This document shows, piece after piece, positions 45,265-52,279 of a stretch of DNA of 64,000 bases; within the stretch, counting starts at the first letter, position 1, and the number at the start of each line of letters is the position of its first letter. Made by a program: the position numbers and the translations under genes. The notes under the pieces were generated by a model that was given only the letters and a program-made list of their open reading frames with translations, had not been told where the DNA came from and ran no database searches. This stretch comes from Cercospora beticola (taxonomy: Eukaryota; Ascomycota; Dothideomycetes; Mycosphaerellales; Mycosphaerellaceae): contig NC_088942.1 of assembly GCF_033473495.1 (NCBI RefSeq), positions 186,001-250,000 of the forward strand, in the 5' to 3' direction.

Positions 45265-47676
45265 TCAGACAATCTGCAAGGACTCGAACACCAACTCGGT
45301 CTCCTTAATGGCATCTCCTCCCATTAGACCATGCACATATGCCTCGCCAATAATCGTGAATGTCGCTTCAGCGCCAGCGACTGGTCTGATCAAGAACGGC
45401 ACATCAGCGCCTGCGATCAAGTAGACTAAATCGCCGGCTTGGGCACCCTCTGAGCTAATGCCCAAGAACCCGTTCGTGGAAGTGAAGATCCGTCGTCCTT
45501 CGTAGACTATCTTGAACAAATCTCCGAAGACGCTGATCGGTTCGTAAATGTCGTCGCTTCGACCGACTGCGCCAAACACTTCATTCCACACATTCGCGTC
45601 TTTTGCGTTATCGGCGCCCCAGATGCTCTGGGAAAGGGAGGATATGATGCGCTTCAATGACATATACTGGACATCTTCAACTTCGAGCAATACGTCGTTC
45701 GCGTCATTGACGTCGAGGAAATGCGTGACTCGTTCTTCCATGTGTGGCAAGTCTTGGATCTGCGACACTATCCAGGGCTTTTGGGCTGAACTGGAGCTAT
45801 CTCGCTTCCACGCCAGGTAAGATTTCATCATGAGATATATAAACGCAAAGTAATGGAAGAATCGAGATTGCCATATCGCATCGCTTTCTTTGCTTGCCGC
45901 GTGGGCGCCGCCGAGAAGGGTTTTCCAAAATGCAGTCATAGTTCGTTCGCCGGTGGGTTTGTAGGTGGTGCCCAGGTCATCGAGCAATGCGAACATCATT
46001 CCAAAGCGCTCTTGTGCAGCTGTCATCGAGGTAACCATCTTGGATGCCGGTACCGAGTTGTACGCCATTTCCTCAACGCTATTCCAATTAATCCAGCTCC
46101 AAATTGACTCTCCAATCTTGTCCACGCTGTCCCATTTCGCACCTTTCAGGCGGACTGTCTTGCCCTCGATAGTGTAGTCATTTGCTGCGGAATGAAATGG
46201 CGCAGAGAATTGCGAGCATCGACAAATTCGCAATGCTCTTGGCCGTAGCTCTGTACTGAGATCGGGGACCCAAGATCGCAAGCCTTCAACGTTCGAATAC
46301 GCGCCGCCCACCAGTGAAAGTCCATCTATGCCTATCTCGGGCCACAATCGTTCGGCCGCGAATGCGTAGTAGATTTCCGAGGTCGGCGACGAGTATGACA
46401 CTGACTCCGGTGCGCCGCCACGCAAGAGCGCGGCCCCTGCAAAGACTTTGTCTTTGGGCACTGTGGCAGCCCTTGTCCTAGCCCTGATGAGATACTGCTC
46501 GGCCGTATCGCGTTTGCCGTTCTGGAAATGAACACGCTCTTCGAATAGACCCACCCTCTGCTCGATGACGCTCTTCAAGTGTTCGAATGCTTGATTCCAG
46601 CCAGCATGAACTGCGAGAGTATTTGTTTCAAAGAATGTTATACATTGGCCAGCGGCCCGCACGAGCATTGCAGGGCTCACTTCTCGATTCCCCATCATGA
46701 TGCGAAATTGCTTCGAGAGAAGGAATTCTTGCAGTGTCCAAATCCTCTTGAACCACTCTTTTTGGAAAACGCGCATTGTTGCCATCCAGCGAGCATTCTG
46801 CAACGAAGAGCCCGAGATGAAAGCTAGGAGCTCGAAAGAGGTGTTGATCTTGTTCAGCAGCGAGGCTGAGGCAGCGGGGACCGACGATCGCGTTTTCTCT
46901 GCTGTGGCGTGAGCAGTGGGATCGTCGGTCAGCGTTTCCATAAAATCGAGTGCAAAGCTCCTCGTCCGATTCAGCGCTCCGAGCCATATGACCACGGCAG
47001 AAGCAGACGTGTAAATCTGGGTCATGATTTTGAGTTGGGAGATTTTCTCTGCAGCATCTTGCTGATTGATGCAGATCTGGTCAGCCCAGATGGGCAACTC
47101 CAGGTTCATGCCTCGGAATTCCAATAGTGCTTGATATAAATTCATGGTAATGTGCACTGATGGTGAGCGGTCAGCGACATCTCCGACAGCCATCGGTTGA
47201 GTAAATCAAAGATGAGCTCACAGGTCTTTTCATTGCACAGGATGGGCCGCTCTTCATGCTTCTGGTCGTCGACATATGCTAGCTTTGTCAGGCTGTACGT
47301 GGGGTTGAGGTTCCACGAGTACGAAAGCGCTTCATATATTGGCCGATCATCGAGATTGGCCTCGAACAAGTCGACCGCGAGTACGTCGGCGAGGGAGGCA
47401 GGGCGTATGCGCAGTAATCGAAAGCATCTTTGTCCACTGAGAGGGTTGTATGGAAACGCTTCGGAGAACTTGATCTGGAGAAGTATGCGATCAGAGACCC
47501 TCTCGCCCTGCAATATCGTAACCTTAGCTCACGTTGCGCTCGGCGCGCCCCAGCAGATAGTCCCTGCCGCCGATACTCAGTGTCTTCGCGCTGATCCGGT
47601 TGAACTTGTTCTTCAGCAGATCCGATGTCAACATCTTCGTTCGCAGCGCAGACCCCCACCGAGCCCGAAGTCGCAT
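45265..47676 (-). CDS. HET-domain (heterokaryon incompatibility) protein
   Basis: Three-exon model: 47676-47533, 47474-47222 and 47156-45265. The introns are 58 and 65 bp and the frame joins to 762 aa. A later ATG at 47634 is an alternative start. The HET domain blocks are in order: FRLLRIRPAS, YEALSYSWN, a join giving ILCNEKTLHITMNLYQALL, then LPIWADQICINQQD and QIYTSASAVVIWLG. The rest is a long C-terminal region of unknown fold common in HET proteins. HET-domain proteins trigger cell death on non-self recognition in fungi, and the domain is related to TIR domains. The gene lies about 0.8 kb from the HeLo-like/NLR pair, on the strand of the HeLo-like gene. The first exon is the weakest part of the model. 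Confidence 0.85.
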
Positions 47677-48459: not shown

Positions 48460-49331
48460 TCAACTGCCGCTTCTAAACTGAATCTGGCCATGACTGACGC
48501 CAACTTGCATGCCTCTGTCGTTCGTACCGAACGTGATGGTGGTCGTAGTGCCGCTCTTTTGGGCATTTCGTTCAACTTCAGCAGGGTCTGATCGTGAGAG
48601 CAGCTCCCGTAAGAGTGGTTGTGATAATTTGAGTGCTTCCAGGAGATCTTCTAAACTTGTTGCAATTGCATCCCGGTCGTACTCGGTGGCGTCCTCGTTA
48701 CTGGTAGTGGATTCGGGTGTTGAACGGAGTTGTACTTCTTCCAGTTTGCGCTGGACTACTGCGACTTCTGTTTGAGTGCGGTCGCTAGCGGCTGTTACGA
48801 GGTCTCTGATTTCGTTGTTCGTTTGGGAATTGCGAATTGAGGAGTATCTAGCACACATCGTGTCAGTATGGTCTTTCTCGCTGTTTGAGTCTGGACATAC
48901 AAGGTAGCAACGCCAACGACCGATTGCAGACTGAGTCTATGAGTTCGGAGCCTGTCGAAATATGCTTGGAGCTGCTGATCGCGAAAGAATCCAACTTTCA
49001 CTCGGTCAATCCAGGAAAGTTTGCCACTTGCAGGCCGCTTGGTCCAACGTAGGATGTCACTACGAATTGTGCTGCAAGCCTCCTCACAACTTTGGATGGT
49101 CGCCTTTGATTGATCGCCAATGTTCATTCCTAGGGATGACCACACTGGTGCTCCGATGCCTTTGAGCAAGCTGAGGTATTTGCTGATCGATTTAGCTTCC
49201 CCTGTCAACTGTGCAACAGTTTCCGGCGCATTTGTGATCTTCTCAAGATCGTCCAGAAGAAGTCGTGCACCATGTAAGGTGGGGACCACCAGGCTGACGA
49301 CCGCGGCTGAAACACTCAGAGGGTCTGCCAT
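48460..49331 (-). CDS. HeLo-like-domain cell-death effector candidate with C-terminal amyloid-type motif
   Basis: Two exons, 49331-48901 and 48847-48460, with a 53-bp intron, giving 272 aa. The N-terminus (MADPLSVSAAVVSLVVPTLH) and the helical region after it match the fungal STAND/HeLo-like N-terminal domain, which in HET-S-type proteins forms a membrane-active helical bundle. A linker of charged helices follows. The protein ends with a Thr-rich stretch and TFGTNDRGMQVGVSHGQIQF (about residues 248-268), a short Gly/Asn/Gln motif with a G-M-Q-V-G core. The divergent neighbour, 225 bp away, starts with a matching motif before its NB-ARC domain. This is the layout of effector and receptor in fungal amyloid signalling. 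Domain assignment is by pattern; amyloid behaviour is inferred. Confidence 0.75.
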
Positions 49332-49556
49332 GTCGACAGTGTTTGGAAATACTGCAACAGAGTCAGCACAAACATTCAGAGGAGGAACGTGAGAAGGAGC
49401 ATCTGCAAAAATGCTGTCTACGATGCACTGCGATCATGCTGTCGCTCAGCCTCAAGCCACAGTTACACAACATTGATCATGCTGCGTCCACACCGTGTCA
49501 TGTTCCGCGCTCTGCTTCTGGCAGTGGATGTGGCATCTCTGGACCAGTACACGACC
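49332..49556. promoter_or_regulatory. Bidirectional promoter: HeLo-like effector / NLR
   Basis: 225 bp between the two divergent start codons. The short distance implies shared control of effector and receptor. No specific motif identified. Confidence 0.55.
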
Positions 49557-52279
49557 ATGACATCTGTAGAAGCGTCTTTTGCTTTCGGTGATGCGAACAG
49601 TGGGCTCCAGGTGGGCCAGAGCTTCGCTTCAATCTCGGCCGAGTTTCACCTTCCCCCTGGTCAGCGGCGTGCACTTCACCTCACGGCACGCGCAGAAACT
49701 GACACCGTCTGGCATTGTAGAACGAGCAGAAACTCCGCCGCTCCCATGCTCCACTGTCCCTCTCCTCCGCGATCCGAATTATGTATCACGATTGGCACTC
49801 CTGAATGATGTCGACTCAAGGGCCTCAGTACCAAGAGCACGAGTAGCAGTGGTCGGACTTGGAGGAACAGGGTGGGCAGGCCAGTGTCTACCACACGCAA
49901 GGAAAGCTGACACGTTGCAGAAAGACGCAGCTTGCAGTCGAGTACGCGGACTCAGTACATACGCGATCGCCGTCCACATGGATAATATGGATATCTGCCC
50001 ACAACGCGGCGCGCGTGCAGCAGAGTGTGAAAGATGTTGCAGACCGACTAAAGATTCGCGGGCGAAATGACTCGAAAGAAGATTTGCTAGAACTGCTCAA
50101 ACGATGGCTCGGGGATAAGAGCAAAGGAAAGTGGCTTGCAATACTGGACAATTTCGACGATGTTGACGTTTTCGCATCTTCTCACAATGACACAGTGGAC
50201 CGACGCCGGTTGAGTGACTACTTTCCGGTGTGCGATCATGGCTCAGTGGTGATCACAACAAGATCAAAGACAGTTGCGCATCAGCTGGTCTACGAGCAGT
50301 CCATCATTGTTGTAGAACCAATGGATGCTCAGCACGCGAGTGTGCTCCTAGAAAAGAAATTGGGATCGCACGGGCGAGATGGGTACGACCGACTGGCCGC
50401 TGCTTTGGACTACTTGCCCCTAGCCATGTCGCAGGCGTCAGCATACATCCGCGAGAGAGGAGAACGCAGCTCGCTCCAGCATTATCTGCATCAGATCGAG
50501 AAGAACCATCAATCACGGATAAAACTCCTGCCACGCGGCGAAAAGCTGCCGAATTGCGACTGGGAGGCGATCAAATCGGTCATCACGACTTGGCAGATCT
50601 CGTTCGAATACATATCTCAATAGAGGAGTTCGGCAGCCGAACTGTTATCACTGATGAGCTTATGTGATTGACAAGCGATTCCAGAGTGCCTTCTTCGTGC
50701 TGTCGAGCCGGATGGAGGGCCGACCGACGACAAAGATGATAGCAATGGCACGAGTGAGCTTGATAACCGCTTTGAGGACGACATCGCGATGTTGCTCGGA
50801 TTTTCGTTCATCTCGACAACAACCAGCGCCACCGAGTGGACAATGCATCGCCTGGTACAGGACGCGACTCGCGTGTGGATAGAAAATAACAATCGAATGG
50901 ATTCAGTTCAAAAGAGCTTTATCAGCAAGCTCGATGCGGTTTTCCCGGAGGGCCGATACGAGAATTGGCAGATTTGCCGAAGCCTCTTGCCGCATGTGCA
51001 GTACGCGGCAGAGCAGGACTCCAAGATCAGAAGCGTTCTCCTTACGTTGGCAGAGGTAATGTATCGAGCTGCGATATACAGCTTGAGCACGTACGGCCGA
51101 GATCAGGCTGCGCATATGGCTGGCGGATCACTACGCCTTCGCACAGAGTGCCTTGGGAAGGATGCTGAGGCGACACTGGGCTCGCAACTCCTGATGGCGC
51201 TGGTGTTAAGAGAACAAGGGTCGTTGGAAGAGGGACAGAAGGCAATGCTGGAAGTGCTAGAGGGGAGCAAGGCCAGCTTCGGTGAGGACCACTCTCTCAC
51301 CATCACGTCTAAGGACATGCTCGCTATCATATACGCCGGTAAGGGACACTTGAAGGAGGCGGAGGGCTTAGCGGAAGAAGTACTGAAGTCGAAGAGAGCG
51401 GTCCCGGGGACAGACGCATCTGACCTATTGAGTATCTGGATCACTCTTGCCGACGCGTACGGACGGCAAGGACGCTTCAAGAAGGCAGAGGAGCTGTTGC
51501 TAAACGCACTTGATGACCCAAGGGCGAAGCTAGCTGCTAGCCACCATGAATTAGAACTTGCAAAGACTGGACTGGCCTCCCTATATTACAAGCAAGATCG
51601 ATTTGAAGAAGCAGAGTCATTATACAAGGAGGCAATGAAGGACGCGATGGCGAGGCGAGGGACAGATCATCCAGATACGTTAATCATTGTACGCGCGCTC
51701 GCTGACATGTATTTCGATGATGAACGATGGGCAGAAGGCGAGGAGCTCCAAGCGAAAGTAGTGGAAGGCTACAAGAGGATACATGGCTCGAAGAAAGAGA
51801 TCACCCTGGTCCAAATGTCCGGCCTTGCGCGCAGCAAAGTGCATCGCGCAGGGAAGGTGGATGCTTACGATTTGGCTGTGCATCTTTCGAACGAAGCCCT
51901 GGAGCTGGTGGAACAAGTGGTAGAGGGCTACAAGGCAATCTATGGCCCACGTCATCCCCAAACTGTCGAGCACATCAAGGTGCGTGCCCAATGTCAATGG
52001 CGTTGCGCGATAATATGCTTCGATCAACGCCGATGGGGAGACGCCGTGGAGCTGCAAAAAAAGACAGCAGAGAACTATAAGGAAATTTTGGGCACGCAGC
52101 ACCCCGACACACTGGCGCAAGTCTCCTGGGTCGCTTGCTATCTGAGAGAGCACGCGTGGGCACATCACAAGCAGCAACGATGGGAGGACGCTGAGAAACT
52201 GCTGGAGGAAGCGGTGGAGGCTTTTACGGAGGCACATGGCTCACAGCATCCAGACACACTCTATTCAGTATCCACGTGA
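49557..52279 (+). pseudogene. NB-ARC/TPR STAND receptor (NLR) with N-terminal amyloid-type motif; two in-frame stops
   Basis: Exons 49557-49659, 49721-49871 and 49921 onward. Residues 8-30 hold AFGDANSGLQVGQSFASI, paired with the tail motif of the divergent HeLo-like protein. A proline-rich linker (PPERAETPPLP) typical of fungal NLRs follows. NB-ARC motifs are the P-loop GLGGTGKTQLA (across intron 49872-49920), Walker B KWLAILDNFDD, RNBS-B GSVVITTRSK, GLPL-like LDYLPLAMS and MHD-like MHRLVQDATRVW. After it lies a run of kinesin-light-chain-type TPRs with repeated HPDTL ends, to 52279. The frame is interrupted by TAG at 50621-50623 and TGA at 50669-50671, between the LPLA and MHR motifs. The conserved text on both sides and between them stays in one frame. 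The first open part is 318 codons. It may be a pseudogene, a truncated short receptor, or rarely read through. Confidence 0.85.

Follow-up and report, generated by a model that had tools for sequence, protein, structure and literature searches.

The divergent gene pair in the window

Cercospora is a genus of leaf-spot fungi, and Cercospora beticola belongs to the Mycosphaerellales within the Dothideomycetes. We analyzed a 64,000-nucleotide stretch of the genome of this fungus (contig NC_088942.1, positions 186,001 to 250,000; hereafter the window), which lies in a genome of 36 Mb in 10 contigs. Between positions 48460 and 52279 of the window, two genes diverge from each other: a minus-strand gene for a HeLo-like protein, the putative cell-death effector, and a plus-strand gene for a putative NOD-like receptor (NLR) with NB-ARC and TPR domains. 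The two proteins carry a common short motif, placed at the C-terminus of the effector and at the N-terminus of the receptor, and the start codons of their genes are separated by 225 bp; on both counts the initial annotation of this DNA proved accurate. The features of the pair, with positions counted from the first letter of the window, are the following.

48901..49331, minus strand: effector exon 1, HeLo-like domain, ATG at 49331 (splice model and PF17111 match)
48848..48900, minus strand: effector intron, 53 nt, nt 432-484 of the open reading frame (ORF), GTATGT...CTAG (splice model)
48460..48847, minus strand: effector exon 2 with the C-terminal motif and the stop codon (splice model)
48481..48531, minus strand: effector C-terminal PP-type motif FGTNDRGMQVGVSHGQI (Ses_B E 0.098, 13.0 bits, under the cut-off of 23.2)
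49332..49556, no strand: common intergenic stretch of the divergent pair, 225 bp
49557..49659, plus strand: receptor exon 1, which encodes the N-terminal motif (gene model)
49584..49634, plus strand: receptor N-terminal PP-type motif FGDANSGLQVGQSFASI (Ses_B E 0.019, 15.3 bits, under the cut-off)
49660..49720, plus strand: receptor intron 1, 61 nt, ORF nt 104-164, GTCAGC...GTAG (phase as in the intron of the Podospora anserina gene PNT1)
49721..49871, plus strand: receptor exon 2, ending in the P-loop (gene model)
49872..49920, plus strand: receptor intron 2, 49 nt, GT...AG, joining GLGGTG to KTQLA (gene model)
49921..50620, plus strand: receptor exon 3 with most of NB-ARC, 318 codons in total to its end (NB-ARC E 4.9e-9)
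50621..50623, plus strand: in-frame stop TAG (frame reading; genome search with the C. kikuchii protein P0010, "1 TGA, 1 TAG")
50669..50671, plus strand: in-frame stop TGA (frame reading; genome search with P0010)
50672..52279, plus strand: receptor TPR part, open, frame unchanged after the stops (TPR_12 E 8.6e-48)

The effector gene runs from the ATG at 49331 to a stop codon ending at 48460, contains one intron, and encodes a spliced product of 272 aa. A Pfam scan placed PF17111, the domain called HeLo-like in the literature (PMC9815663; citations here and below refer to excerpts of the papers), at residues 2-199 of this product (E 3.2e-16, 59.8 bits against a cut-off of 27.2). The predicted protein is 99% identical to the C. 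beticola protein P0001, from which it differs in 2 of 272 residues. Among nine effector relatives, the five that extend to the C-terminus (P0001-P0005) all retain FGx4G[MF]QxG; the other four (P0006-P0009; 150-193 aa) terminate before the motif, shortly past the position of the intron, and are probably unspliced or cut gene models. Judged by its reading frame, the effector gene looks intact.

The receptor gene begins with the ATG at 49557 and has two introns (61 and 49 nt) before its main exon. Removal of intron 1 restores FHLPP-ERAETPP, and removal of intron 2 restores the P-loop GLGGTG-KTQLA; both junctions match the corresponding segments (FHLAPERLETPP and GLGGTGKTQLA) of P0010, a receptor relative of 941 aa from C. 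kikuchii that is free of interruptions. Exon 3 is 77% identical to P0010 over 233 aa.

An ORF for a HET-domain (heterokaryon incompatibility) protein adjoins the pair at window positions 45265-47205 on the minus strand (PF06985, E 2.3e-22); the frame at 47142-47528 upstream of it had no Pfam match.

The common motif and its class

Within the six-frame translation of the window, the pattern FGx4GxQxG occurs twice, and these occurrences are exactly the effector and the receptor motif. First-order Markov simulations yielded a mean of 0.03 occurrences by chance and not a single window with two among 200. Aligned locally, the two 40-residue termini score 38, a value that 1 of 5000 shuffled pairs attained. 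The common motif is short and glycine-rich, as would suit a fortuitous likeness of two unrelated neighbors; however, this explanation is contradicted by the shuffles and simulations, by a second pair of equal divergent layout on contig C3 of the genome (see below), and by the known two-gene precedent HELLP/PNT1, and we give it practically no credence. All 18 aligned motif segments from the window, C3, and other matches agree in the residues F, G, G, Q, and G, an invariance that is descriptive since the segments had been hand-picked for possessing the motif.

Using the N-terminus of the NLR relative P0011 as the query, we retrieved 934 proteins at E <= 0.001 among 1215 candidates; 120 listed matches of these 934, together with P0010, make up the set of 121 NLR relatives considered here (P0010-P0130). 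Within their first 200 residues, 91 of the 121 possess GxQxG, 83 NxGxQxG, and 64 NxGxQxGxN, while NxGxQxG was present at residues 201-400 in 7 of them. Sequence reversal is useless as a control for GxQxG, a palindrome that is found in 91 of the 121 proteins in both directions.

These patterns correspond to those of PP, the pseudopalindromic, RHIM-like motif of HELLP and PNT1 (PMC7885112), whose consensus has been printed as FxGx(x)NxGLQLxGxNxGxL (PMC3321046) and whose core is NxGxQxGxN (PMC9815663). Of the five core positions, four are kept in the receptor (NSGLQVGQS) and three in the effector (DRGMQVGVS). Among short NLR N-termini, PP has been reported in 296, and 37 adjacent proteins carry a matching motif (PMC9815663); for HeLo-related C-termini, 98 matches were reported in the year 2015 (PMC4518210). 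Given these numbers, the kind is well known. Among the Pfam profiles, Ses_B is used for PP and NACHT_sigma for the sigma motif (PMC8086366). In a Pfam scan of the cut motif segments at E up to 0.5, Ses_B was the sole family returned, albeit below its cut-off of 23.2 bits for all three segments, the two from the window and the end of the C3 effector copy (20.6 bits, E 0.00042). Receptor relatives scored 26.6 bits (P0011, above the cut-off), 21.1 bits (P0012), and 11.5 bits (P0010). Since a PNT1-like segment from Podospora has no Pfam match whatsoever, the Ses_B cut-off misses likely members, and failing it says little; likewise, the precomputed label PF17046 is attached to 6 of the 120 listed relatives (of 934; counted by eye), which indicates a strict profile.

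The initial annotation had entertained the idea of a pair with perhaps a new motif class or family. Such a class could be argued from the scores of both window motifs under the Pfam PP cut-off and from the replaced asparagines in the effector core, but no Pfam family other than Ses_B is matched, the N-termini of the relatives display the PP core, the pair follows HELLP/PNT1 in its domain types and introns, and the cut-off counts for little in view of the unmatched Podospora segment. By this comparison the window motif fits PP, and a new class is not supported; the idea of a novel one seems very improbable to us.

The name Ses_B might also suggest a sigma-motif pair of the sesA/sesB/het-eN type, and signal transduction ATPases with numerous domains (STAND proteins) encoded beside ses genes can indeed be of the NB-ARC/TPR kind (PMC3321046). 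The sigma motif, however, spans ~40 aa in which GxGxQFNxx / GGTQNINT units recur, whereas the window motif has a single GxQxG core, and its profile is NACHT_sigma, not Ses_B. NACHT_sigma was absent from the matches listed at E up to 1 for the effector and the N-terminal part of the receptor and from those listed at E up to 0.5 for the cut segments, with the proviso that HMMER filters can lose weak matches. The single core, the identity of Ses_B as the PP profile, and the lack of a listed NACHT_sigma match contradict a sigma identity, which we regard as exceedingly improbable.

Several observations weigh against assigning both proteins to one PP pair. The window motifs stay under the Ses_B cut-off as cut segments, and in the full-protein scan the receptor part obtained 13.7 bits and the effector went unreported. 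The effector motif has the core G, Q, and G but is devoid of both flanking asparagines. In a profile of NLR N-termini built from 30 of the 121 relatives (those with an anchor of the ER-x-ET-P type, P0010 excluded), the effector attained only 10.6 bits, a value equaled by 5 of 6000 shuffles with the best shuffle at 16.9 bits; its relatives P0002, P0004, and P0005 fared worse, with 10, 49, and 237 of 6000 shuffles, respectively. A search of solved structures with P0001 found no relative (6 chains, best E 0.28). The TPR half of the receptor is just 37% identical to P0010 over 539 columns, so that P0010 is perhaps not a strict orthologue. Finally, the comparison with HELLP and PNT1 given below was made through published lengths and intron coordinates rather than by alignment.

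The interrupted receptor and the second pair on C3

The initial annotation had named an NB-ARC/TPR receptor, and these domains are present; it had overlooked the TAG and TGA codons that follow the NB-ARC exon, 45 bases apart, ahead of the TPR ORF, and the receptor is therefore not one open gene. Counting the stops, its frame comprises 870 codon positions. As read from this assembly, the receptor gene is probably broken, and the two stops would permit at most a sensor-less PP-NB-ARC product from its 5' half.

The receptor could still be functional in the living fungus if the stops were assembly errors, were spliced out, or were specific to the isolate. The frame is open and homologous on either side of the stops, the indices for repeat-induced point mutation (RIP) around the receptor are ordinary, and a scan for introns (GT/GC-AG, 35-300 nt) over both stops yielded 65 frame-keeping candidates, nine of them with GT donors. 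However, there are two separate stops, the 65 candidates include none with a GTRNGT donor, the shortest GT candidate measures 108 nt, and every candidate would delete residues between SFEYIS and QAIPE that are encoded in P0010-P0013; rescue by splicing is unlikely. Moreover, the four matches of a protein search that allowed lengths of ~478-1522 aa, and that a split gene model would escape, include no receptor relative from C. beticola. Taken together, we consider a functional receptor unlikely. Since the window receptor bears no RIP signature, its two stops are of other or unknown origin.

The genome searches turned up one other, diverged pair, located on C3 and with ruined receptor copies. 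The region C3:1002001-1011900 contains an inverted repeat, 2.8 kb or longer (89% identity; the right arm reaches the end of the stretch examined), each arm of which holds a receptor copy riddled with stops: 63 TAG and 19 TAA in one, and 54 TAG and 13 TAA in the second, where an additional piece contains 14 TAG and 9 TAA. The ratio (CpA+TpG)/(ApC+GpT) amounts to 0.00-0.15 in 500-base blocks wholly inside the arms (0.33 and 0.35 in two edge blocks), and TpA/ApT to 1.6-2.1; the values for the window are 1.35 and 0.54, respectively. Such dinucleotide ratios are the mark of RIP. The C3 effector copy is divergent to the right-arm receptor and is, in two parts, 65% and 56% identical to the window effector. 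Its C-terminal motif ITFGNNEKGMQIGVSHGAV lies beyond the mutated zone, which ends at ~1009100-1009200 within the first exon of this copy; three in-frame TAG codons are found in that exon, one within the mutated zone and two beyond it. The left-arm receptor is accompanied by a divergent fragment matching effector residues 1-61.

Exon-by-exon searches, which give lower bounds and whose weak matches were partly looked at, found no further receptor with a PP N-terminus in the genome. Because the window receptor is interrupted and the C3 receptor copies are ruined, the effector appears to be without an intact partner receptor here. Other receptor relatives were considered as substitute partners and rejected, as the motif expression came up blank in L002, L009, L011, L012, L013, and L021, a check that covered these six loci and had C4:3828340 and C4:3487618 outside it. 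The receptor relatives on C9 and C4 have a HET-domain frame ahead of an NB-ARC-like frame on the same strand; L021 (C9:600501-606000) and L009 (C4) look like all-in-one HET, NB-ARC-like, and TPR genes, provided that the frames are joined. A weak Ses_B place on C2 (16 bits) was taken as chance, with no NLR or HeLo-like frame discernible by eye in its 3-kb locus. For the other PF17111 places in the genome (11 rows), the C-terminal motif was sought via the Ses_B search alone.

Relation to HELLP/PNT1 and proposed mode of action

In P. anserina, the gene for HELLP (271 aa) is split once, by an intron of 47 bp at ORF nt 429-475, and the gene for PNT1, an NB-ARC/TPR protein of 971 aa, is likewise split once, by an intron of 54 bp at ORF nt 95-148 (PMC7885112); the name PNT1 stands for PP-NB-ARC-TPR (PMC12881547). 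The window locus resembles this system in two ways: its HeLo-like protein is of nearly equal length, has its one intron close to ORF nt 430, and ends in a PP-type motif, and the adjoining NLR is of the NB-ARC/TPR kind and starts with a PP-type motif that is soon followed by an intron. The effector intron agrees in phase with that of HELLP at an offset of one codon, and receptor intron 1 agrees in phase with that of PNT1 and is located three codons downstream. Together with the predicted protein P0010, which carries the motif and NB-ARC in one chain, this intron leans toward the N-terminal exon being joined to the NB-ARC exon, as the initial annotation had presupposed, with gene predictions rather than transcripts as the evidence. 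The window receptor departs from PNT1 by a further intron, situated in the P-loop, by its two in-frame stops, and by having 870 codon positions instead of 971 aa. Translation of the primers printed for PNT1(1-31) gives MSDSYRFG and NTFLQAP (PMC7885112), and the Podospora proteins P0077-P0080, retrieved with P0011, contain MSDSYRFG...NTFPQAP; P0077, for one, contains MSDSYRFGDYNNGSQVGTNRGTIYNTFPQAP.

Other known systems are similar in part. The CgHELLP/CgSBP/CgPNT1 system of Chaetomium globosum (PMC5485727, PMC7885112) likewise combines the PP motif, a HeLo-like effector, and an NLR receptor. As a difference, no PP-bearing lipase corresponding to CgSBP was recognized in the genome search with Ses_B (three weak places), an absence that is weak since this search missed the window effector too. 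HET-S/NWD2 is also composed of an NLR and a HeLo-family effector with a common terminal amyloid motif, but there the effector has the two-repeat HET-s motif and the receptor has NACHT and WD repeats, whereas the window motif is single; the matches listed for the window proteins and cut segments do not include the HET-S Pfam family. The mammalian RHIM of RIPK1/RIPK3 has the core G-h-Q-h-G in common but resides in different proteins, fungal PP and RHIM cross-seed in part (PMC7885112), and the RHIM family was equally missing from the matches listed for the window proteins and cut segments.

The PF17111, NB-ARC, and TPR_12 matches and the common motif bear out the proposal of the initial annotation that a further NLR/HeLo-like amyloid-signaling pair is present here, and its choice of HELLP/PNT1 and RHIM for comparison was correct. 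By analogy, we hold it to be very probable that the locus is a HELLP/PNT1-type pair, i.e., an NLR receptor and a HeLo-like killer with a common PP amyloid motif, including its working principle. The sequence itself shows how the two genes are built, the class that the motif fits, the conserved introns, both stops, and the ruined receptor copies of the second pair. The type of cell-death switch is known; the window pair adds a member from Cercospora. A limited literature search brought up no HELLP/PNT1 pair in Cercospora, and one of the papers retrieved names C. beticola in its reference list alone; the experimental PP cases in the excerpts at hand stem from C. globosum and P. anserina (PMC7885112, PMC5485727).

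Going by the published relatives, a pair of this type would act through amyloid formation, templating, and membrane killing. In the NLR, an N-terminal PP motif would be followed by NB-ARC as the switch and by the TPRs as the sensor, and the HeLo-like neighbor would contribute the matching C-terminal PP motif. In the working form, binding of a ligand to the TPRs would cause the NLR to oligomerize, the clustered PP motifs would adopt an amyloid fold and template the PP motif of the effector, and the HeLo-like helices thereby freed would attack the plasma membrane, so that the fungal cell dies. With the two stops in place, the 5' half of the receptor gene would give at most a PP-NB-ARC protein lacking the sensor, and the effector would be left without an intact partner.

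The effector might alternatively be an orphan executioner, kept after loss of the receptor and either co-opted for another trigger (e.g., allorecognition, as for het-s) or governed by the sensor-less PP-NB-ARC fragment. Compatible with this scenario, without proving it, are the intact effector beside a broken receptor, the ruined receptor copies elsewhere, and the intact effector in the C. beticola protein record; we consider it rather improbable.

As a HELLP/PNT1-type pair, the locus places a fungal necroptosis-like PP/RHIM switch in Cercospora, and thus in the Mycosphaerellales. It also represents a natural case in which the executioner seems to outlive its receptors, one of them stopped and the others mutated by RIP after duplication, and the persistence of amyloid executioners without an NLR is a question that is directly testable at this locus.

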